Shown: positions 35,778 through 47,051 of the stretch, piece after piece
Position numbering within the stretch: position 1 is the stretch's first letter
Layout of the letters: every line of letters starts with the position of its first letter
Source of the DNA: an uncultured Lachnospiraceae bacterium
Lineage (GTDB): Bacteria; Bacillota; Clostridia; Lachnospirales; Lachnospiraceae
Length of the DNA: 59,445 bases
Direction of reading: 5' to 3'
NCBI GenBank assembly: GCA_947173495.1
Contig: CAMWFQ010000027.1
Coordinates: 1-59,445 of the forward strand
Made by a program: the position numbers and the translations under genes
The notes under the pieces: generated by a model
Told to the model about the DNA's origin: nothing
What the model saw: only the letters and a program-made list of their open reading frames with translations
Databases searched by the model: none

Positions 35778-36539
35778 ATGCAGAAAAAGAAAAGATGCAA
35801 AGCCATGGTTTCCATTCTGTGCGCAGCATGCCTGCTTGCAGGAATGACAGCGCTTCCGGCCAAGGCGGCGCCGGCGGAGGCACAGAGTGCACCCGCACAA
35901 AGTGCGGGGAGGTTTGACCCGGCTTATTATGCGGCGACTTATCCGGATGTGGTTGCAGCTCTTGGAACGGACAGCCAGGCACTGCTGAATCACTATCTTG
36001 AACATGGGATGAAGGAGGGACGGCGTCCCTACAGAGGATCCAATCCCGGAGCGGCTGTGGAGGGTGTGGCGGATACCACAGTCAGCGTGGAAGATGTTTT
36101 TGTTCCGGTTGCCATGAAAGATCTTGCCAATCTGAAGAGCCTGCGGAAGAAAGCGAATGACGAGGAGCTTACCCAGGCCTATAATGTGGCGCTTGGAATC
36201 GTAACGCCTTATGCGGACTTAAGCCGGCAGGAGCAGTTATATGGAATAGCTTCGTCTCTGCGGGCGATCTTTGACAGCGGCATGGGCTATTCCATGTCCA
36301 CACCTCATTACAATGATCCTTATGGATATTTCGTGCTGGGAACAGCCTCCTGCGCAGGGTGCGCCAGGGCCACAGGACTGTGCCTGAATATCCTGGGGAT
36401 TCCCTATGAGCATGTAAATGAGAATCAATATTCACATCAGTGGTGCCGCGTGAACATTGACGGCGAGTACTGGATCTGCGACGCATTCGGACTGTACTGC
36501 GGACCGGAACCGGCGCCTTACGCGCATCCGTATCTGTAA
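35778..36539 (+). CDS. Secreted transglutaminase-like protein
   Basis: This 253-aa protein has a signal peptide (about 1-30, cleavage near AKAAPA), then a short module FDPAYYAATYPDVVAALG...HYLEHGMKEGR found in extracellular proteins of gut Clostridia, and a transglutaminase/protease-like domain with the triad visible as Cys192 or Cys195 (TASCAGCARATG), His220 (YSHQWCRV) and Asp235 (WICDAFG). It could act on surface proteins or peptides. A clear terminator follows. Confidence 0.82.
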   Translation: MQKKKRCKAMVSILCAACLLAGMTALPAKAAPAEAQSAPAQSAGRFDPAYYAATYPDVVAALGTDSQALLNHYLEHGMKEGRRPYRGSNPGAAVEGVADTTVSVEDVFVPVAMKDLANLKSLRKKANDEELTQAYNVALGIVTPYADLSRQEQLYGIASSLRAIFDSGMGYSMSTPHYNDPYGYFVLGTASCAGCARATGLCLNILGIPYEHVNENQYSHQWCRVNIDGEYWICDAFGLYCGPEPAPYAHPYL

Positions 36540-36793: not shown

Positions 36794-37039
36794 ATGGAAG
36801 TAGTACGGAAATATATTGATGCGGATAGTTTGATGACAGTAATGAAACTGCCTGAAAAATTTAGAAATCGTATGCTGGAAGTGATTATACTTCCTGCAGA
36901 AGAGCAGGAAAAATCTTCTAAGAAAGCAGCAGAGATTGATCAGGCATTACAATCACTGGTTGGCTCAATCCCTTATACAGATATGACCGTAAAAGAATTA
37001 AGAGAGGAACGGTTAAGAAAGTATGAAAATATTGGTTGA
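36794..37039 (+). CDS. Antitoxin-like protein of a VapBC-type pair
   Basis: The 81-aa protein has an N-terminal part YIDADSLMTVMKLPEKFRNR and a C-terminal helix MTVKELREERLRKYE, matching small antitoxins that pair with PIN toxins. It would bind its promoter and neutralise the toxin. Its last 17 bp overlap the toxin gene, typical of translational coupling. AGGAGGGCAAAA precedes the ATG. Confidence 0.8.
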   Translation: MEVVRKYIDADSLMTVMKLPEKFRNRMLEVIILPAEEQEKSSKKAAEIDQALQSLVGSIPYTDMTVKELREERLRKYENIG

Positions 37040-37427
37040 TACAAATATCGTGCTTGATGTTATGCTAAAAAGAGAACCGTTTTACAGATTATCGTTGGAA
37101 ATCCTAGGTTTGACGAAAAGAGATGAAGTAGAGGAATATGTATCTGCATCTGCGATTACAGATATTTATTATCTTGCATATCGTCAGATTAGGGATAAAG
37201 GCAGTGTAAAAAAGCTGATGAAAGAATTGCTTACGGTTGTATCTGTTGCGAGTGTATCAGGGCAGGAAATAGAAAATGCCCTGGCTTTAGAATGGAATGA
37301 TTTTGAAGACTCCGTACAATATTCGGTGGCGTATTTGCAGGAGATGGATGGGATTGTAACGCGCAATCCGAATGATTATAAAGGAGCAAAAATAAAAGTC
37401 TGGAAACCGGAAGAAGTATTGTTATAA
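37023..37427 (+). CDS. PIN-domain toxin (VapC-like)
   Basis: The 134-aa predicted ribonuclease has the PIN-domain acidic residues at the start (MKILVDTNIVLDVML, Asp6), mid-protein (SASAITDIYYLAY) and near the end (DFEDSVQYSVAY; IVTRNPNDY). Its target RNA is unknown. It is directly downstream of its antitoxin and adjacent to a decayed transposase. The pair is more AT-rich than its neighbours, suggesting acquisition. Confidence 0.88.
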   Translation: MKILVDTNIVLDVMLKREPFYRLSLEILGLTKRDEVEEYVSASAITDIYYLAYRQIRDKGSVKKLMKELLTVVSVASVSGQEIENALALEWNDFEDSVQYSVAYLQEMDGIVTRNPNDYKGAKIKVWKPEEVLL

Positions 37428-38020: not shown

Positions 38021-38223
38021 TTTCTACACCCACAAAATCCCCCGGAAGTTGACAATCTCACCGAAAAAACCTATAATAGCCATCAGTTAAGAGCAAATTA
38101 GAAAAACAACAGCCAGAGCGGGTATCTTTGTGGAGTTTTCAACGGCGAAAACTGCGCAGGGATATTTTTGTGAGCCCGGAGCAGCAGGGGCTGTTATATT
38201 TTTACGAATCGAGGCGAGGCGGA

Positions 38224-39921
38224 ATGCGGGAGCAGATTCCGGAGGAAGAGAAAAAAGCCCGGGAGGAAGAAAAGAAAATGCAGGAAGAAGAGGAAACCCG
38301 GGAGGAAGGAGCCGCAGGCGGCAAAAGCAGGAAAAGGCTGTTTTGGCTGGCACTTCCGGCGGTGATTCTCATCGGATGTGCGGCGGCATTTGTGTTGTAT
38401 GAAAACAACAGAGTCTACAGGGAATGCTATGTTGAGGCGGGTGTGGAGGTTATGCCACGGGATTTCCTGAAGGATCCGGAGGGGGAGGCGGCGTTTGCAC
38501 CGGAGAGTGACGCTATTGATCCTTCCTGGCCGGGGGAATATCATGTGCGGATCAAGGCCGGATATTTTACGCATAACAGCACGCTTTACATAACGGACAG
38601 TATTGCGCCGCAGGGAACACCGGTCAGGGTTAATCTTGAGCTGGGCGAGGAGTGTGAGGCGGATGCCTTTGTGAAGGATATTGTGGATGCCACCCGGGTG
38701 GAGGTGTCCTATGGGGAAAAACCGGATTTTGCAAAGCCGGGAGAACAGAAGGTGTGTCTTGTACTCACGGATCAGGGGGACAACCGGTCAGAGCTGGAGG
38801 CGGAACTTTATATCTCTCAGGTGGTGGAGGAGCTGTTCGTGGAGGCAGGGAGTGCGCCGCCGGAGATTTCGGATTTTGTGATCGAGGGAGAAGACGCGAG
38901 GTTCCGCACAGATATTGCTTCTGTGGATTACACCCGGCCGGGGGATAAGAAGGTTTCCCTGCAGGTGGATGGGGTAGATTATCAGGTGACCATGCACATT
39001 GTGGATACGGTTCCGCCCGCCCTGGAGGTGAAGGATCTTGAGAGCTTTACGCTCCTTCCCAGGCAGGCGGAGGACTTTGTGGTTTCGGCGGAGGATGTGA
39101 CGGATGTGACTTTTTCGTTTCGGCAGGAACCGGATGTGACGCTTCCCGGAGAACAGACGGTGGAGATTATCGCTTCTGATCAGGGAGGCAATGAAACGGT
39201 AAAGGAAGCGAGGCTGACCCTGCAGACGGACGAGGAAGCGCCGGTGATCAGCGGCGTGAGCGATTTGAGCGTGCTGGTGGGAAGCTCCATTTCCTACAAA
39301 AAGAATGTCACTGTTACAGACAACTGTCCGGAAAGACTGAGCTTTACAGTGGATAACAGTGCAGTAAACTTAAGTGTGGAGGGTGTTTATCCGATTACCT
39401 ATATTGCAAGGGATTACGCGGGAAATGAGACTACTGCGGAAGCAAATGTCACGGTCCGCCCCCGGGTGTATGATGAGAATGAGGTTTATGCCATGGCGGA
39501 CGCCGTGCTGGCAAGGATCATTACCCCTGAAATGTCTCCTTTGGATAAGGTGCATGCAATTTATAACTATAATAGGAGCCATATTTCCTATCTCAGTCAT
39601 TCTGAAAAGGGAAACTGGGTGAGGGCGGCCTATGAGGGGCTGGCGGACGGTAAGGGAGACTGCTATGTTTACGCCTGTACGGCCAAGGCGCTTCTTACCC
39701 GGGCGGGTATCGCCAATATGGACATTGCCAAGATCCCTTCCAGAACCAGTCATTTCTGGAATCTGGTGGATATCGGGGAGGGGTGGTATCATTTTGACAC
39801 CACGCCCAGAAAGGATCATCCCACCATCATTATGTGGTCGGAAGCACAGCTCATGGAATATTCGGCGATCCATTACGGATCCCATAATTATGACCACTCT
39901 CTGTATCCACAGGTAAACTGA
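38224..39921 (+). CDS. Membrane-anchored transglutaminase-like protein with Ig-like repeats
   Basis: This protein is about 565 aa. It has a Glu/Lys-rich cytoplasmic N-terminus, one membrane helix (LFWLALPAVILIGCAAAFVL), three to four Ig-like beta domains (repeated GEQxVxLxxxDxGGN-type ends, for example VTVTDNCPERLSF) and a C-terminal transglutaminase-like domain with Cys in GKGDCYVYACTAKALL, His in TSHFWNLVDI and Asp in WYHFDTTP. It probably cross-links or cleaves surface or wall peptides. The start is uncertain: ATG 38224 (GAGGCGAGG upstream) is preferred, but a TTG at 38128 in the same frame is possible. Confidence 0.82.
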   Translation: MREQIPEEEKKAREEEKKMQEEEETREEGAAGGKSRKRLFWLALPAVILIGCAAAFVLYENNRVYRECYVEAGVEVMPRDFLKDPEGEAAFAPESDAIDPSWPGEYHVRIKAGYFTHNSTLYITDSIAPQGTPVRVNLELGEECEADAFVKDIVDATRVEVSYGEKPDFAKPGEQKVCLVLTDQGDNRSELEAELYISQVVEELFVEAGSAPPEISDFVIEGEDARFRTDIASVDYTRPGDKKVSLQVDGVDYQVTMHIVDTVPPALEVKDLESFTLLPRQAEDFVVSAEDVTDVTFSFRQEPDVTLPGEQTVEIIASDQGGNETVKEARLTLQTDEEAPVISGVSDLSVLVGSSISYKKNVTVTDNCPERLSFTVDNSAVNLSVEGVYPITYIARDYAGNETTAEANVTVRPRVYDENEVYAMADAVLARIITPEMSPLDKVHAIYNYNRSHISYLSHSEKGNWVRAAYEGLADGKGDCYVYACTAKALLTRAGIANMDIAKIPSRTSHFWNLVDIGEGWYHFDTTPRKDHPTIIMWSEAQLMEYSAIHYGSHNYDHSLYPQVN

Positions 39922-39972: not shown

Positions 39973-40023
39973 TTGTTCTGACGCCCCAATTTGCAAGTGT
40001 CGGCAGCATGGAGGGTTATTATG
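39973..40023 (+). repeat. 51-bp leader module, copy 2
   Basis: It aligns without gaps to 32952-33002 at 44 of 51 positions and, as there, ends at the start codon of the gene. It includes the ribosome binding site. Confidence 0.8.
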
Positions 40024-40737
40024 AAAATTTTAGGGGTGATCGGCGGCCTGGGACCGGAGGCAACGGCGTATTTTCTGCGGCTTCTGACTGCTATGAGCGA
40101 TGCCGGGACAGATCAGGAGCATATGGAGACTATCATATACAGTAAGCCCTCTATCCCTGACAGAACGAGATATATTCTGGGAGAAAGCAGCCAGAGCCCG
40201 GTGCCTGCCATGATGCAGGCAGGGGAGAGGCTCAGGGGAGCGGGCGCTCAGGTGCTGGCGATTCCCTGTGTGACAGCTCATTATTTCAGAAGAGAGCTGG
40301 AGGAGAAGCTGCAGATTCCCATTCTCGATGGGATAGAGGAGACGGCCTGCTATCTGGAGAAGGAGAAAATCCGGCGGGCGGGCATACTGGCCACTGATGG
40401 TACGATACAGGGAAGGGTGGTACAGAATGCATTGGAGGCTCACGGCATTTCCTGTGCCGTACCCTCTCCGGTGAATCAGAAAAAGATCATGTATCTGATC
40501 TACGACCAGATGAAGGCGGGGAAAAAAGCGGATCTGGAGCTTTTGCGGCAGGCGGGTGACGATCTGAAAGAGCAGAAAGCGGAGGTGATTCTCCTTGCAT
40601 GCACAGAGCTCTCTCTTCTGAAGCGGGATTTTCCGCTGCAGGCAGGATATCTGGATATCCTGGATGTTCTGGCGCGAAATGCAGTACAGACCTGTCACAG
40701 ACTTCGAAAGGAATACGAAAGACTGATTACCACATAA
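40021..40737 (+). CDS. Aspartate/glutamate racemase-family protein
   Basis: This 238-aa cofactor-independent racemase has ILGVIGGLGPEATAYFLR at the N-terminus and the two catalytic Cys in IPCVTAHYF (about residue 86) and LLACTELSLL (about residue 195), as in aspartate racemase (RacD type). It would interconvert L- and D-Asp or a related amino acid in the cytoplasm. The ATG at 40021 follows ATGGAGGGTTATT. It is the first gene of a Dlt-like cluster, 74 bp before the adenylation gene. Confidence 0.9.
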   Translation: MKILGVIGGLGPEATAYFLRLLTAMSDAGTDQEHMETIIYSKPSIPDRTRYILGESSQSPVPAMMQAGERLRGAGAQVLAIPCVTAHYFRRELEEKLQIPILDGIEETACYLEKEKIRRAGILATDGTIQGRVVQNALEAHGISCAVPSPVNQKKIMYLIYDQMKAGKKADLELLRQAGDDLKEQKAEVILLACTELSLLKRDFPLQAGYLDILDVLARNAVQTCHRLRKEYERLITT

Positions 40738-40811
40738 AGAGATCTTCGGATCGGACAAAAGATAAAAAGAGATCGGCTGATAAGCAGAGCAGAAGGAAAG
40801 AGGGAAAAGAA

Positions 40812-42344
40812 ATGCGGAACCATGTGTTGGATTATCTGACAGAAGCAGCCAGGCGTGCGCCGGAGCGGATAGCTTTTTCAGATGGAAAAGAAGAGATGAC
40901 CTTCGGGGAGATTTATGAGCAGAGCAGGAGGGTGGGGACCTATCTTCACAACTGCGGCATTTATAAAGAGCCGGTGATCATTTTTATGAACAGGCATCCC
41001 AGGACAATTGCCGCCTTTTTTGGTGTGATTGCCGGAGGAAACTACTATGTGCCGGTGGATGTGGAAATGCCGGAGGTCAGGATCCGCCTGATCATGGAAA
41101 ATGTAAAGGCATCGGCAGTGATCTGCGACGAGGATACCCTTGCTGTGGTGCGGCAATATGATTTTGCCGGACAATATGACGCAGCCGGTCAGATCGTAAG
41201 CTATGATGAGGTCTGCAGGACGGAAGTGAACGAAGAAGCACTGGCGGACATTTATGACAGAGCCATCGATACGGATCCGGTCTATATCGTATTTACTTCA
41301 GGCTCCACAGGGATTCCAAAGGGAGTGACAGCCTGCCACAGGTCGGTGATCGATTACGTGGAGAGCTTTTCAGAGGCAATGAAATTTGATGAGCATACGG
41401 TATTTGGCAACCAGGCGCCGCTGTACATGGACGCCTGCTTAAAAGAACTGTATCCCACCCTGAAGTTCTGCGCCTGTACTTACCTGATTCCCAAGGAGCT
41501 TTTCATGTTCCCCGTAAAGCTGGTGGAATTTCTGAACGAGCACCGTATCAATACCATCTGCTGGGTGGCCCCGGCGCTGACCACGATTTCAGCTTTCGGC
41601 ACCTTTGACAAGATCGTACCTGCGTATCTGAAGCTGATCGCATTTGTCAGTGAGATCTTCCCTGTAAAGCAGCTGAACAAATGGAAAGCGGTTCTTCCCC
41701 ATGCCAGGTACATAAACCTCTACGGACCCACAGAAGGAACCGGCGTGTGTTGTTACTATGAGGTGGACAGGGAATTTGAGGAAAATGAGGTTATCCCGAT
41801 AGGAAGACCTTTCAGAAATACGGATATTATTCTGCTCAATGCCCGGGATGAGAGAGCTGCCGAGGGAGAAAGCGGAGAGATCTGCATCAGAGGGACTTCG
41901 CTGACGCTGGGGTATTACAATAACTTTGACAGAACCAGGGAATCCTTTGTACAAAATCCTTTGAACCCGTTTTATCCGGAACTGATCTACCGGACGGGAG
42001 ATATCGGCCAGTATAATGAAAGAGGGGAGCTGGAATTCATCAGCCGCAGGGATTACCAGATCAAGCATATGGGCCACAGGATCGAGCTGGGAGAGATTGA
42101 GATCAATGTAAATATGATGGATGAGATTAAGATGGCAGGCTGCATTTATGACGATGTTAAAAGCCGGATCGTGCTTTATTATGTGGGTGCAGTCACTGAG
42201 AAGGAGCTCGCGGCAGGATTAAAAACAAAGCTGCCCCGCTATATGATACCCAACAATATCATCAGACTGGAGCAGATGCCTCTCACCATGAACGGAAAGA
42301 TCGACCGCATTGCGCTTAAGAAAAGCTATCAGAAAAAAGGCTGA
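40812..42344 (+). CDS. DltA/NRPS-like amino-acid adenylation enzyme
   Basis: This 510-aa AMP-forming ligase has core motifs A3 VFTSGSTGIPKGV, A5 NLYGPTEGTG, A7 YRTGDIGQ, A8 RRDYQIKHMGHRIELGEIE and A10 MNGKIDRIALKK. It should activate an amino acid as aminoacyl-AMP and load it on the carrier protein of the next gene. Overall it resembles DltA, and keeps an Asp in PLYMDACLKELYP (amino-group binder). The pocket segment that is FCGE-like in DltA reads AFVSEIFP, so the substrate may differ from D-alanine. AAGAGGGAAAAGAA precedes the ATG at 40812. Confidence 0.9.
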   Translation: MRNHVLDYLTEAARRAPERIAFSDGKEEMTFGEIYEQSRRVGTYLHNCGIYKEPVIIFMNRHPRTIAAFFGVIAGGNYYVPVDVEMPEVRIRLIMENVKASAVICDEDTLAVVRQYDFAGQYDAAGQIVSYDEVCRTEVNEEALADIYDRAIDTDPVYIVFTSGSTGIPKGVTACHRSVIDYVESFSEAMKFDEHTVFGNQAPLYMDACLKELYPTLKFCACTYLIPKELFMFPVKLVEFLNEHRINTICWVAPALTTISAFGTFDKIVPAYLKLIAFVSEIFPVKQLNKWKAVLPHARYINLYGPTEGTGVCCYYEVDREFEENEVIPIGRPFRNTDIILLNARDERAAEGESGEICIRGTSLTLGYYNNFDRTRESFVQNPLNPFYPELIYRTGDIGQYNERGELEFISRRDYQIKHMGHRIELGEIEINVNMMDEIKMAGCIYDDVKSRIVLYYVGAVTEKELAAGLKTKLPRYMIPNNIIRLEQMPLTMNGKIDRIALKKSYQKKG

Positions 42345-42427
42345 AAAATACAGAAGCTTTGCAGCAAGTGCAAAGTCCTGGCTGAATAGTTATGGAGAAA
42401 GTACGTAAAGAGAAAAGGAGGGAAACT

Positions 42428-42658
42428 ATGGAAGACTTACTGGAAATTTTAAGAGACCTGCACCCGGAGGTGGATTTTGAGAGCTGCGAGACGCTGATTG
42501 ATGATAAGATACTGGATTCCTTTGATATTGTATCTATCATTGCGGAGGTAAACGACCAGTTTGAGGTGACGATTTCTGCAGAGCATATTATACCGGAAAA
42601 CTTTAATTCCGCCAGAGCGCTTTATGAACTGATTCAGAGGCTGGAGGATGAAGACTAG
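42428..42658 (+). CDS. Stand-alone acyl/peptidyl carrier protein
   Basis: The 76-aa helical protein carries the phosphopantetheine-attachment Ser in ILDSFDIVSI, the DltC/ACP-type motif. It should carry the activated amino acid as a thioester. GGAGGGAAACT precedes the ATG. It lies 83 bp after the adenylation gene and 2 bp before the MBOAT gene, exactly the DltA-C-B logic in a rearranged order. Confidence 0.94.
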   Translation: MEDLLEILRDLHPEVDFESCETLIDDKILDSFDIVSIIAEVNDQFEVTISAEHIIPENFNSARALYELIQRLEDED

Positions 42659-42660
42659 AC

Positions 42661-44271
42661 ATGTTGTTTACATCCTATGAGTTTCTGGGCTTCATTCTGA
42701 TCCTGTTTGTGCTTTATTATCTGATCCCAACGAAATTCCAGTGGCCGTTGCTTCTGGCCGCCAGCTATGTTTTTTATTTTCTGGCGGATCCTTTTTATCT
42801 GATCTACATACTGACCACTACCGTAACCGTTTATTTCCTGGGCTGCAGAATCGAAAGGTACAGAGAGGAACAGAGCGGCTATTTAAAAGATCATAAGGAG
42901 GAACTGAGCAGGGAGGAAAAGAAAGCTTATAAGAGCGGAATCAAAAAGCGCCAGTGGCGGTTACTACTTCTGGGACTTTTGATCAATCTGGGAATTCTGG
43001 CAGTGGTCAAGTATACCAATTTTGCCATAGCCAATGTGAACTTTGTGCTTCATTGTTTTGGAAGCAGCCGGGAGTTTGGGCTGGTAGATCTGGTGTTGCC
43101 CATGGGCATTTCCTTTTATACCTTTCAGGCGCTGGGGTATATCATCGATGTGTACCGGGGAACCGTTAAGGCGCAGAAGAATCCCTTTCAATTTGCATTG
43201 TTTGTTTCCTTTTTTCCTCAGCTGGTTCAGGGACCTATCAGCAGATACCAGGATCTGTCCGAAACGCTGTTCGGCGGTCATAAGTTTCATGCAGAAACGG
43301 TTTGTTTCGGCCTTGAGCGGATTCTGTGGGGCTTTTTTAAGAAGCTTGTGATTGCCGACAGAATCCTCGTGGGAGTCAATACCATTGTGAGAAACCCGGA
43401 GGAGTATGGCGGAGCGTATGTTCTGGCAGGCATGCTCTTCTATGCGCTGGAGTTGTATGCGGATTTTACCGGGGGGATAGATATCACCATCGGTGTTGCC
43501 CAGGTGCTGGGTATCACGGTCACAGAAAACTTCAACCGGCCCTATTTTTCCAAATCGATTAAGGAATACTGGCGCAGATGGCATATCACCATGGGTACCT
43601 GGTTTACGGACTATATTTTTTATCCCATATCGGTCTGTAAACCGATGCTGAAGTTTTCCCGGTTTGCAAGAGAGCATTTCGGAGAGGCCATAGGGAAGAG
43701 AATGCCGGTGTATCTCTCCTCCTTTGCGGTATGGCTCGCCACCGGTATCTGGCATGGAGCCAGCTGGAATTTTGTGGTCTGGGGGCTGGGTAACTGGGTG
43801 GTGATCATGATCTCCCAGGAACTGGAACCGCTTTACAAAAAATTTCATGAATGGGCGGGAAGACGCTTTGGAAGGGAAATAGGAGAAAATGTTCTGTTTC
43901 GGTGTTTTCAGGTGATCAGGACCATCCTTTTAATGAGCGTGCTCAGAACCTTTGACTGCTACCGGGATGTGCCCCTCACCTTCCGGATGCTGGGATCAGC
44001 GGTAAGAGGAGGAAACTGGCAGATTTTCTGGGATGGTTCTTTGCTGGGACTGGGACTTGACATGGCAGATTACGGGATCCTGGCGGCGGGACTTGTGCTT
44101 CTGCTTGTGGTAAGCCTTCTGCAAAGGAGCGGCAGCGTGAGGGAAAAAATTGCACGGAGGCCTTATCCCGTCCGTTTTATGATCTGGTATGGACTGTTCC
44201 TTGCAGTGCTTCTTATGGGAGCTTATGGAATTGGATATGATGCAAGCCAGTTTATCTATAATCAATTTTAG
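42661..44271 (+). CDS. MBOAT-family O-acyltransferase (AlgI/DltB-like)
   Basis: This 536-aa polytopic membrane protein has the MBOAT signatures DLVLPMGISFYTFQALGYIID, FPQLVQGPISR, EYWRRWHITMGTWF and the catalytic His in TGIWHGASWNFVVWG. It would take the acyl or aminoacyl group from the carrier protein and pass it across the membrane. The sequence is closer in style to AlgI than to the shorter DltB. Its ATG lies 2 bp after the carrier gene stop, so translation is coupled. Confidence 0.94.
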   Translation: MLFTSYEFLGFILILFVLYYLIPTKFQWPLLLAASYVFYFLADPFYLIYILTTTVTVYFLGCRIERYREEQSGYLKDHKEELSREEKKAYKSGIKKRQWRLLLLGLLINLGILAVVKYTNFAIANVNFVLHCFGSSREFGLVDLVLPMGISFYTFQALGYIIDVYRGTVKAQKNPFQFALFVSFFPQLVQGPISRYQDLSETLFGGHKFHAETVCFGLERILWGFFKKLVIADRILVGVNTIVRNPEEYGGAYVLAGMLFYALELYADFTGGIDITIGVAQVLGITVTENFNRPYFSKSIKEYWRRWHITMGTWFTDYIFYPISVCKPMLKFSRFAREHFGEAIGKRMPVYLSSFAVWLATGIWHGASWNFVVWGLGNWVVIMISQELEPLYKKFHEWAGRRFGREIGENVLFRCFQVIRTILLMSVLRTFDCYRDVPLTFRMLGSAVRGGNWQIFWDGSLLGLGLDMADYGILAAGLVLLLVVSLLQRSGSVREKIARRPYPVRFMIWYGLFLAVLLMGAYGIGYDASQFIYNQF

Positions 44272-44287
44272 GAAAGATGAAGAAAAG

Positions 44288-45322
44288 GTGAAAAGAAAGA
44301 AAATCATGAAAGCTGCGGTCACGGCTGCGCTGGTGCTGACGAGTCTTTTCCTGCTCCAGTGTCTGCTGGTGCCCAAATATGCCACGGATGTGGTGGAGGG
44401 GTCGCTGATTGCGGAATATTATCAGGAAGAGAAGGATCATGATGTGGTCTTTATCGGAGACTGCGAGGTATATGAAAATTTTTCTCCCAGGGTACTCTGG
44501 GAGGAGTACGGGATCAACAGTTATATCAGAGGCAGTGCCCAGCAGCTGATCTGGCAGTCTTATTATCTTCTGGAGGACACCCTTCGCTATGAAAAGCCTG
44601 AGGTGGTGATCTTCAACGTGCTTGCCATGCAGTATGACAGACCCCAGAAGGAGGCCTATAATCGTATGAGCCTGGAGGGAATGAAATGGTCCGGGGCCAA
44701 GGTGAAGGCAATCCGGGCGTCCATGACGGAAAGAGAGGAATTCCTGGACTATGTGTTTCCCATTTTGCGGTACCATTCCCGATGGGAGGAATTGAAAAGT
44801 GAGGATGTGCAGTATCTCTTTGACCGCAAAAAGGTTTCCCACAACGGTTATTACATGCGGGTGGATGTAAAACCGGCGGAAAATGTGCCGGAGGGAAATA
44901 TCCTGGCGGATTATCAGTTCGGTGAAAATGCATATGATTATCTTGACAGGATGACCCGCCTGTGCAGAGAAAATGACATTCAACTGATTTTGATCAAGGC
45001 GCCCTCCCTTTATCCCTTCTGGTATGAAGAGTGGGAGCAGCAGATAGAAGACTATGCGGAAAAAAACGATTTGCTTTATCTGAATTTCCTGGAGATGACA
45101 GAAGAGACAGGAATCGATTTTTCCACAGACACCTATGACGGAGGCCTTCACATGAATCTTTCGGGGGCGGAGAAGCTCTCTGCCTGCCTGGGCAGGATTT
45201 TGCAGGAGGATGTGGGACTGAAGGACAGAAGAGGAGAAAAAGAGCTCTCGGAGAAATGGCAGGAGAAGATCATTGCCTACGAGGCGGAAAAAGAAAGACA
45301 ATACAAGGAGAATATGGGATGA
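44288..45322 (+). CDS. Membrane-anchored SGNH/AlgJ-DltD-like protein with Cys in the nucleophile motif
   Basis: This protein is about 344 aa, with an N-terminal membrane helix (residues 8-27) and an extracytoplasmic SGNH-like domain. Block I reads VVFIGDCEVYENFSP, so the usual nucleophilic Ser of GDS is Cys59; block V DGGLHMNLSGAEKL keeps an Asp-x-x-x-His arrangement. DltD and AlgJ/AlgX proteins work with MBOATs to place acyl groups on extracellular polymers. The likely start is GTG at 44288, 16 bp after the MBOAT gene; an ATG at 44306 is possible. Confidence 0.82.
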   Translation: MKRKKIMKAAVTAALVLTSLFLLQCLLVPKYATDVVEGSLIAEYYQEEKDHDVVFIGDCEVYENFSPRVLWEEYGINSYIRGSAQQLIWQSYYLLEDTLRYEKPEVVIFNVLAMQYDRPQKEAYNRMSLEGMKWSGAKVKAIRASMTEREEFLDYVFPILRYHSRWEELKSEDVQYLFDRKKVSHNGYYMRVDVKPAENVPEGNILADYQFGENAYDYLDRMTRLCRENDIQLILIKAPSLYPFWYEEWEQQIEDYAEKNDLLYLNFLEMTEETGIDFSTDTYDGGLHMNLSGAEKLSACLGRILQEDVGLKDRRGEKELSEKWQEKIIAYEAEKERQYKENMG

Positions 45323-45918
45323 GAACGAAAGCAAAGATGATGTTATTGACAGCAATTCTTACTGCAGCCCTGCTTGGATGCGGTCAGGATGCAAAGGTGA
45401 TTGAAGGGGAGGTAAAAAACGCATCAGACGAGGCAAAAGAGAATCCGGAAGCAGAAGATACTCAGGATGCCGCGGATGCGGAGACAGAAAAGGAATCGGA
45501 AGAAGCCGCGGAATATAAGGGATACGCGTTTATTTACCAGGATGTAGTGATTGAGATGGATGCAGATGCGGCTCCCATTGTGGAAAAGCTGGGAGAAGCC
45601 AATTCCTATTTTGAGGCTCCCAGCTGTGCGTTTGAAGGGATTGACAAGATGTATACTTATGGTAGTTTTGAACTGGACACCTACCCAATGGAAAATAAGG
45701 ATTATGTCTCGGCAGTAATCTTTAAGGATGATGCCATCGCCACCCCGGAGGGTGTGGGAGTTGGAGATACGGCAGAAAAAATGACAGAAATCTACGGAGA
45801 AGGTACGCTGGAAAACGGAATGACCGTTTATGAAAAGGATGGTATGAAGCTGTGCTTTATCCTCCAGGAGGAAAGTATTGTATCGATTGAATATCGTTCC
45901 ACAGTACTGGATGAGTAA
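45319..45918 (+). CDS. Lipoprotein of the Dlt-like cluster, unknown function
   Basis: This 199-aa protein has a lipobox LLGCGQ (Cys about residue 18), an acidic Glu/Asp/Ala linker to about 60, then a compact domain with a repeated motif (GMTVYEKDGMKLCF; EKLGEANSYFEAPSCAFEG) of PepSY/DUF-like appearance that I cannot name. Its ATG overlaps the previous stop (ATGA), so it is translationally coupled to the SGNH gene. Confidence 0.82.
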   Translation: MRTKAKMMLLTAILTAALLGCGQDAKVIEGEVKNASDEAKENPEAEDTQDAADAETEKESEEAAEYKGYAFIYQDVVIEMDADAAPIVEKLGEANSYFEAPSCAFEGIDKMYTYGSFELDTYPMENKDYVSAVIFKDDAIATPEGVGVGDTAEKMTEIYGEGTLENGMTVYEKDGMKLCFILQEESIVSIEYRSTVLDE

Positions 45919-45953
45919 GTAAGAACAATAAAAGGTAAAAAACGGGGGAGGCT

Positions 45954-47051
45954 ATGAAAAGAAAAAGAAGATCCCATTTCTTATGGATAACAGCGCTGAT
46001 TTTTTTCATCGGCTTTGGAACAGGAAGCCCGGCACAGGAAACACTGGCAAAAGAGACAGCCGCAGGAGAAAATCCGGCGGATGAAAGGCAGCCGGATAAA
46101 GCGCAGGCACAGGGAGTGACAATCACCCTGGCAGGAGACTGCTCTTTGGGAAAACTTTCGATCCATGGCTATGAAGGAACCTTTTACGAAATGTATGACA
46201 AATACGGACCTTCTTATTTTTTTAAAAATGTAAAAAGTATTTTTGAAGACGATGATATGACGCTGGTCAATTTTGAGGGAGTGCTGACCCGGTCCAATCA
46301 TATTGTGGAAAAACAGTATAATATCAAGGGAGAGCCGGAGTTTAACCAGATTCTGGTGGAGGCCGGGATTGATGCGGTAAGCTTTGGCAATAATCACCGG
46401 ATCGATTATGGAGAAGAGGGAGTTACGGACACCATTGAAGCCTTCAGGGAGATCCATATGCCGTATGCCTATGACGAGCATGTGGGAATCTATGTGACAA
46501 ATGGAATCAGAATCGGATTTGTGTCAGTGAATGAAGTATATGACGGAATCAGAGTGGAAGAATACTTACAGCAGGGAATCATCCGGCTGAAGGAGGCAGG
46601 CGCAAACCTGATTCTGGCCTGCTGCCACTGGGGCATCGAGGGAGATCATTATCCCAATGACTATCAGAAAGAGCTGGGCCGCAAATGTATCGACTGGGGC
46701 GCCGATCTGGTGGTGGGAAGTCATCCCCACGTACTCCAGGGAATCGATTATTATAATGGAAAATATATCATCTACAGTCTGGGGAATTTTTGTTTCGGCG
46801 GAAACCGGAATCCCAAAAACAAAGATTCTATGATGATCCGGGCCTTTTTTCCTGTGACGGAAGGAGCAGTAAAGGGAGAAGCGTTACTGAGTGTGATTCC
46901 CTGTACCATCAGTTCCGTAGAGTCACGGAATGATTACTGTCCCACGGTGGCGGAGGAAGGAAGGCGTGGAGAGATTTTCAAAAAGCTGAACCGGTATTGC
47001 AGGGATTTCCCTGTCTCTGTGGGCGATGATGGAAGAGTTACTCATCATTGA
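45954..47051 (+). CDS. CapA-family (poly-gamma-glutamate-type) metallophosphatase-like protein
   Basis: This 365-aa secreted protein has an N-terminal hydrophobic segment (signal or anchor, about 9-25) and a CapA domain: TLAGDCSLGK, LVNFEGVLT, VSFGNNHRIDYGEEGVTDTI, CCHWGIEGDHYP and VGSHPHVLQGIDYYNGKYIIYSLGNF. CapA/PgsA proteins take part in anionic polymer assembly or anchoring. It is 35 bp after the lipoprotein gene and probably the last gene of the cluster. Confidence 0.92.
   Translation: MKRKRRSHFLWITALIFFIGFGTGSPAQETLAKETAAGENPADERQPDKAQAQGVTITLAGDCSLGKLSIHGYEGTFYEMYDKYGPSYFFKNVKSIFEDDDMTLVNFEGVLTRSNHIVEKQYNIKGEPEFNQILVEAGIDAVSFGNNHRIDYGEEGVTDTIEAFREIHMPYAYDEHVGIYVTNGIRIGFVSVNEVYDGIRVEEYLQQGIIRLKEAGANLILACCHWGIEGDHYPNDYQKELGRKCIDWGADLVVGSHPHVLQGIDYYNGKYIIYSLGNFCFGGNRNPKNKDSMMIRAFFPVTEGAVKGEALLSVIPCTISSVESRNDYCPTVAEEGRRGEIFKKLNRYCRDFPVSVGDDGRVTHH

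Follow-up and report, generated by a model that had tools for sequence, protein, structure and literature searches.

We analysed a stretch of 59,445 nucleotides from an uncultured Lachnospiraceae bacterium (contig CAMWFQ010000027.1, forward strand; the window). It carries seven neighbouring genes that encode a transglutaminase-like protein (TGL), an Asp/Glu-type racemase independent of pyridoxal phosphate (PLP) (RAC), an amino-acid adenylation enzyme (LIG), a carrier protein (CAR), a membrane-bound O-acyltransferase (MBOAT; the protein is called MBO), an SGNH-fold protein (SGN) and a lipoprotein (LIP). A gene for a CapA-family protein follows downstream (Table 1). We predict with moderate confidence that the seven proteins form a carrier-dependent surface aminoacylation system, most likely with D-aspartate as donor. 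The original prediction for this DNA had described the seven codirectional genes from RAC to CapA as a Dlt-like cluster. These genes were all found on the + strand at the predicted positions, and the likeness to Dlt in adenylation enzyme, carrier, MBOAT and SGNH protein was supported; TGL had been missed as a member, and CapA turned out to be peripheral.

Table 1. Genes of the cluster and upstream promoter-like site, with positions in the window.
Feature	Position	Strand	Characteristics
TGL	38128..39921	+	start uncertain: TTG 38128 or ATG 38224
RAC, Asp/Glu-type PLP-independent racemase	40021..40737	+	TIGR00035, both catalytic Cys
LIG, stand-alone amino-acid adenylation enzyme	40812..42344	+	pocket DAKWIFLGVK
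CAR, stand-alone carrier protein	42428..42658	+	LDSFDI phosphopantetheine site
MBO, MBOAT acyltransferase	42661..44271	+	WHG His, C-terminal FIYNQF
SGN, SGNH-fold protein, GTG start	44288..45322	+	block I is GDC instead of GDS
LIP, lipoprotein, two small alpha/beta repeats, invariant Ser-Cys	45319..45918	+	no family match
CapA-family (PGA_cap) protein	45954..47051	+	PF09587; downstream, codirectional, not a conserved member
Promoter-like site, TTGACA-17-TATAAT, sigma-70-like	38049..38077	+	12/12 consensus matches, upstream of TGL

Conservation of the gene set

Two sets of related loci were compared. A search with the MBOAT in 299 genomes of the same family gave 174 matching genomes at E 1e-60, mostly with more distant MBOATs, and the 40 best neighbourhoods formed the MBOAT-chosen set. 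The SGN alignment was used to search the genome collection. At least 596 stretches matched a pattern. A relative was encoded in 583 of them, of which the best 80 make up the SGN-chosen set; these loci resemble the window most, and GDCE itself served as one of two search patterns. Together the sets comprise 120 loci with 8 duplicates between them. Those of the best 80 with at least 7.5 kb upstream and at least 2.5 kb downstream of SGN were taken as complete loci, 53 in number.

TGL, LIG and MBO were present in all 53 complete loci, as was SGN by selection, while LIP was found in 52, CAR in 50 and RAC in 46. The core genes were codirectional in 51 of these loci and had the exact order TGL-RAC-LIG-CAR-MBO-SGN-LIP in 27, an arrangement beyond what chance would give. 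The corresponding figures for the MBOAT-chosen set were 37/39 and 13/39. We concluded that the gene set is conserved and its order partly so. The counts from the complete loci favour close relatives, and wider censuses gave lower figures. Among 56 family loci, several of them cut by contig ends, MBO and SGN were present in 55 each, TGL in 46, LIG and CAR in 44 each, LIP in 43 and RAC in 27, with all seven genes in 22; this census excludes the loci of G249 and G272 and 5 weaker places. For 20 SGN-selected loci outside the family but within the class, the counts were 18 each for TGL, CAR, MBO and LIP, 17 for LIG and 13 for RAC. The conserved set thus consists of TGL, RAC, LIG, CAR, MBO, SGN and LIP.

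CapA does not belong to this set. The protein of the window is a clear family member (PF09587, 182.1 bits), and the original prediction had counted it as part of the cluster and taken it to indicate an anionic polymer as acceptor. CapA comes directly after the cluster in three distinct genomes, that of the window and two others (L041 = L152; L043 = L113). A CapA-like gene occurred in just 4 of the 53 complete loci, two of these only 25-27% identical, and nearly all complete relatives have an intact cluster but no CapA. We therefore rejected CapA as a core member and consider an acceptor polymer made with CapA, similar to poly-gamma-glutamate, very improbable. The original prediction had also rested its distinction from a standard Dlt variant on linkage of both the racemase and CapA in related genomes. 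The racemase is linked and proved to be a genuine member; CapA is not linked.

CAR and MBO are separated by 2 bp (CAR stop 42658, MBO start 42661), and SGN and LIP overlap by ATGA (SGN stop 45322, LIP start 45319), both as predicted. Over the 120 loci, the six main joints had median gaps of 6-18 bp; wider gaps in the window are TGL-RAC (99 bp), RAC-LIG (74 bp) and LIG-CAR (83 bp). From TGL to CapA, the intergenic stretches of the + strand contain no terminator-like site. One such site is located at 38180-38195, ahead of the alternative TGL start at ATG 38224. Predicted RNA structure in three intergenic stretches was no better than in shuffled sequences. The whole stretch contains 17 promoter-like sites compared to 10.4 ± 3.6 in shuffles, each a consensus match and not proof of a promoter. 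Immediately upstream of the unit, at 36794-37427, a small gene and the gene after it, which encodes a PIN domain (PF13470), resemble a toxin-antitoxin pair. A fragment on the - strand at 37517-37924 matches positions 262-333 of the 422 positions of an ISKra4 family transposase model.

The racemase, the ligase and the donor amino acid

RAC scored 197.9 bits with TIGR00035 (cut-off 93.1), and its best match in the PDB was aspartate racemase 1jfl (E 3.2e-45). The two cysteines C83 and C194 were invariant in 27/27 rows of the alignment. The same was true for R48 and K165, which align to R48 and K164 of 1jfl, presumably the residues that bind the distal carboxylate. At E ≤1e-52 the 299 genomes contained 33 places with a racemase of this type. 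Of these, 27 belong to the cluster, 3 are next to LIG or TGL on contigs that are split, and the other 3 are elsewhere; a close racemase lies beside the cluster in about 30 of the genomes. The distances between RAC sequences correlated with those of the MBOAT (0.64; 0/1000 permutations as high), as would hold for every gene passed on together with the cluster.

LIG reached 303.4 bits with TIGR01733 (cut-off 317.4) and 210.3 bits with PF00501. In most members its binding pocket, with positions set by alignment and GrsA numbering, reads DAKW[IV]FLG[MV]K. Lys or Arg occupied the position that corresponds to 239 in 88/88 distinct racemase-linked ligases versus 24/35 unlinked ones. This exchange suggests the binding of an acid. 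Apart from the core genes, the most common neighbour was a glutamine-hydrolysing asparagine synthase, found in 25/120 loci (23/112 distinct) and adjacent and codirectional in 24. All four copies scanned scored 433-443 bits with TIGR01536 (cut-off 267.1). Racemase type, basic pocket and asparagine synthase linkage together favour aspartate, probably the D-form. The acidic amino acid proposed in the original prediction is thereby supported, by the pocket of the racemase-linked ligases as well as by the adjacent asparagine synthase.

Several observations weigh against this assignment. The pocket counts are uncorrected for shared ancestry, and we know of no nonribosomal peptide synthetase code that matches the one of LIG. 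A published code for Asp, DLTKVGHVGK, has its Lys elsewhere, as far as the part of the source seen goes (PMC12283262), so that the pocket residue is support and not proof. The window RAC has the motif PCVT, and most cluster copies have PC[IV]T, departing from PCNT: among 99 cluster rows, Asn after the first Cys was replaced by Ile, Val, Phe or Met in 94 and kept in 4, with 1 row gapped. All 6 checked racemase copies from other loci, one of them in the host genome, have PCNT. G245, G249 and G272 (L217, L218, L219) carry cluster-type racemases (PCITAH) outside any complete cluster. Conversely, RAC is absent from 7 of the 53 complete loci, and it is rarer in the wider samples (27/56 and 13/20). 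All seven complete loci without RAC keep Lys or Arg in the pocket, which consequently needs no such racemase beside it, and a racemase is missing from 5 of those loci in which asparagine synthase was found. We also searched 13 SGN-bearing genomes for the racemase, 10 with a locus known to lack it and 3 unexamined ones of the same genera. A relative at E 1e-20 was present in only 7 and none in 6; like the basic pocket residue in the loci without RAC, this speaks against a strict requirement for a D-amino acid. With regard to the outer proteins, Cys59 of SGN is a putative nucleophile by its position alone.

Some of these observations would fit the same machine with a different acidic donor, namely D-glutamate, cysteate or, in loci that lack the racemase, L-aspartate. 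A Lys or Arg in the pocket suits any acidic side chain, also in the seven loci without RAC. RAC passed the cut-off of the NCBIfam model for the cysteate racemase CuyB (195.8 bits, cut-off 190), while the general TIGR00035 model scored as high. A gene similar to glutamate 2,3-aminomutase is present in three related loci. On the other hand, the linkage to asparagine synthase and the best PDB match of RAC both point to aspartate. D-glutamate is supplied by MurI in nearly all bacteria, and a dedicated racemase for it would thus be unneeded. We regard another acidic donor as unlikely, though of appreciable probability.

Outer proteins, acceptor and a possible modular platform

MBO matched PF03062 with 57.3 bits, and the WHG histidine was present in 41/41 rows. 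The C-terminal end was FIYxxF in 118/120 loci, in the window FIYNQF, and corresponds to the FXYXXF acyl-shuttle motif. At E 0.01 the only PDB matches of the MBOAT were DltB structures (8jem, 6bug). SGN showed a weak match to Lipase_GDSL_2 (20.5 bits, cut-off 32.9), and its best hit in a profile search of PDB sequences, at E 0.05, was not meaningful. The predicted model of SGN had a mean confidence (pLDDT) of 83.1 and matched SGNH hydrolases, DltD (6pfx) and PatB (7tlv/7trr) in Foldseek and VIA-align comparisons.

The catalytic Ser of SGNH block I is replaced by Cys in the window SGN (GDC). Cys was found at this position in 37/39 sequences of the MBOAT-chosen set, in 20/20 of the class profile and in 13/16 of the extra family profile, and in 141/146 distinct sequences from all sets. 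Since GDCE was used as a search pattern, the 80/80 in the SGN-chosen set are no test. The original prediction had overlooked both this Cys and the shuttle motif on the MBOAT. Judged by its sequences and the modelled fold, the cluster is a variant of MBOAT-SGNH acyl transfer, with the WHG and FXYXXF motifs and the SGNH fold present and Ser replaced by Cys. In the search of the 299 genomes, 8 of 63 SGN places were flagged with a stop inside the match; as open reading frames (ORFs) of 310-407 aa are present there, decay is not claimed. The host genome contains a second, distant MBOAT-SGNH pair (L228, G000:C7:170000-180000; 29-31% identical), with no ligase or carrier near it in the 10 kb looked at.

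In TGL, a membrane segment recognised by eye is accompanied by Ig-like/Rib domains and by a transglutaminase-like domain (Pfam Transglut_core, 4.1e-11) that has the residues Cys, His and Asp. The three residues were kept in 34/34 rows, and a profile search against PDB sequences gave no match at 0.01. A secreted-looking protein of 253 aa is encoded at 35778-36539. By eye it has transglutaminase-like patches around Cys, His and Asp, there was no Pfam match at E 0.01, and it is possibly a second transglutaminase-like protein near TGL. For LIP, the library scans returned no family match and the fold matches were weak, the best being YjgB (4ygt, E 1.6e-3, TM-score 0.36-0.46). SGN and LIP are fused in one ORF in two relatives (L045 and L100).

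From the observed genes, linkage and motifs and the modelled fold we infer the chemical steps, the amino acid and the acceptor as follows. RAC would produce an acidic D-amino acid, most probably D-aspartate. By analogy to their families, LIG would adenylate it and load it onto the phosphopantetheine arm of CAR. MBO would take the aminoacyl group through the membrane and attach it to the Tyr in its FIYNQF tail, as suggested by DltX and PatA. The tail would hand it to SGN, which, having Cys for Ser, would carry it as a thioester, perhaps on Cys59, before transfer to an envelope polymer. LIP and TGL may be extracellular partners of the last transfer step, a role suggested by the observed linkage and the SGN-LIP fusions. 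In some lineages the adjacent asparagine synthase might amidate the aspartyl group, similar to AsnH acting on D-Asp in the peptidoglycan of Lactococcus. The likely outcome would be an altered envelope charge or a handle for cross-linking.

The machine might also modify a lipid, a lipoprotein or a secreted small molecule instead of a wall polymer. CAR matched PF00550 with 20.5 bits (cut-off 20.8), and its best NCBIfam match was the cispentacin carrier AmcB (34.2 bits, below the cut-off of 80). LIG scored highest with the general adenylation-domain model of NCBIfam, and the lipoprotein is conserved (52/53). These points would suit a non-wall product. However, MBOAT-SGNH pairs with an FXYXXF tail are described for envelope polymers in the part of the source seen (PMC12148441). 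Moreover, beyond the core and asparagine synthase no neighbour family occurred in more than 9/120 loci, the commonest being an ABC-transporter ATPase, with most rarer families unannotated. We consider a non-wall acceptor rather improbable.

Tentatively, the aminoacylation system can be placed in a broader frame, in which Clostridia would have a general, modular platform for surface acylation. Its fixed outer machine would comprise TGL, MBOAT, Cys-SGNH and LIP, with donor modules exchanged by lineage, some of which make their own non-standard amino acid; the Cys-SGNH thioester and TGL would form amide or cross-link bonds and not simple esters. The loci suggest several donor modules: the racemase for D-aspartate, a PLP enzyme, ligases without the amino-binding Asp and, in a sister type that has Ser-SGNH but neither TGL nor LIP, an aminomutase-like enzyme that would make a beta-amino acid. 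L067 encodes a PLP enzyme with an Orn/DAP decarboxylase fold, as does L250, there next to the ligase. In L065, which has no RAC, a single ORF of 1114 aa (L065:10713-14057) joins a PLP decarboxylase/racemase-type fold to TGL. A radical SAM protein similar to glutamate 2,3-aminomutase (591.5 bits, cut-off 650) is encoded directly downstream of LIG-CAR-MBO-SGN(Ser) in L070. Homologues of this gene follow directly downstream of the ligase, carrier, MBOAT and SGNH genes in L076 and L245, and by sequence a beta-amino-acid surface modification is possible in all three loci. The ligases of L072, L074, L231 and L233 lack the Asp that we take to be the residue binding the amino group. Finally, TGL, MBO, SGN and LIP occurred without a nearby ligase in 8 of the 56 census loci, one of these genomes (G257) having a ligase elsewhere. 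It is the other donor enzymes and the ligase-less loci that suggest a fixed outer machine with plug-in donors, as a reading.

Distribution and comparison with known systems

Relatives of SGN were found in 61/299 family genomes at E 1e-60, in 35/291 genomes of the class at 1e-90, 30 of them outside the family, and in 5/398 genomes of a thin phylum sample at 1e-40. These numbers include forms without racemase or ligase. A genome of the same genus (G264) showed no match to the cluster in the MBOAT, SGN and racemase searches. D-alanylation by Dlt is the textbook Gram-positive route to tune surface charge and to resist cationic peptides. Dlt is rare in the family searched, where SGN relatives of the cluster are commoner: canonical DltA was detected in 13/299 genomes at E 1e-130, with 8 over the cut-off and none in the host genome. 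A mutual exclusion of DltA and the cluster was not supported, as 2 of the 13 DltA genomes (G249, G262) have an SGN relative versus 61/299 overall.

Given the rarity of DltA, the cluster could take over its role as a divergent Dlt system that still transfers D-alanine onto a teichoic-acid-like polymer, with the racemase being incidental. The same enzyme types, the DltB structures as the PDB matches of the MBOAT, a weak match of CAR to DltC and the match of the SGN model to DltD would agree with this. A standard Dlt operon was rejected, since the scores of LIG with DltA (TIGR01734; 271.8 bits, cut-off 559.85), MBO with DltB (TIGR04091; 152 bits, cut-off 375) and CAR with DltC (24.9 bits, cut-off 68) were all far below the cut-offs. 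SGN gave no match to DltD at E 0.001 in Pfam or NCBIfam, its similarity being in fold only. The basic pocket residue, the linkage of the racemase in 46/53 loci and the position of the hexapeptide on the MBOAT and not on DltX also argue against D-alanine, which we consider improbable as the donor.

If D-aspartate is added, a carrier-dependent MBOAT would here modify the envelope in a new way, which may be relevant to how gut Clostridia respond to peptides and immunity of the host. Among the matches listed from the open full-text literature, which mostly does not cover subscription papers and preprints, there was no description of such a cluster or modification and nothing relevant on envelope aspartylation. 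An eLife paper on lipocone proteins mentions SGNH and MBOAT, in the part seen, only as neighbours of another gene family.

The cluster shares with Dlt an adenylating ligase, a stand-alone carrier, an MBOAT, an SGNH-fold protein and the Tyr acyl-shuttle hexapeptide. It differs in the order LIG-CAR-MBO-SGN, in the fusion of the hexapeptide to the MBOAT, in Cys for Ser, in its own racemase and in two extra extracellular members (TGL and LIP). The motif is on the MBOAT itself and not on a separate DltX, with no search aimed at a further DltX-like small gene. FXYXXF is described, in the part of the source seen, on the microprotein DltX in Dlt and on the MBOAT itself in PatA-type systems (PMC12148441).

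The D-aspartate cross-bridge system RacD-AslA-AsnH of Lactococcus lactis is similar with regard to amidation by an asparagine synthase: according to the part of the source seen, racD and aslA share an operon, and AsnH amidates the attached D-Asp of peptidoglycan to D-Asn (PMC4155827). It differs in its ligase AslA, an ATP-grasp enzyme that acts in the cytoplasm on precursors, whereas our cluster has adenylation, a carrier and membrane transfer.

PatA/PatB and similar O-acetylation systems have, like the cluster, an MBOAT with a C-terminal FXYXXF and an SGNH-fold partner. PatA-type systems are said, in the part of the source seen, to use acyl-CoA, which is evidently why they have no carrier (PMC12148441). 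The cluster has a ligase and a carrier, and Cys at the nucleophile position, which offers an SGNH-fold protein of this kind for study. It departs from the statement in the same source, as far as seen, that non-Dlt MBOAT/SGNH pathways have no carrier (PMC12148441): here, a carrier is combined with an MBOAT-fused shuttle motif.

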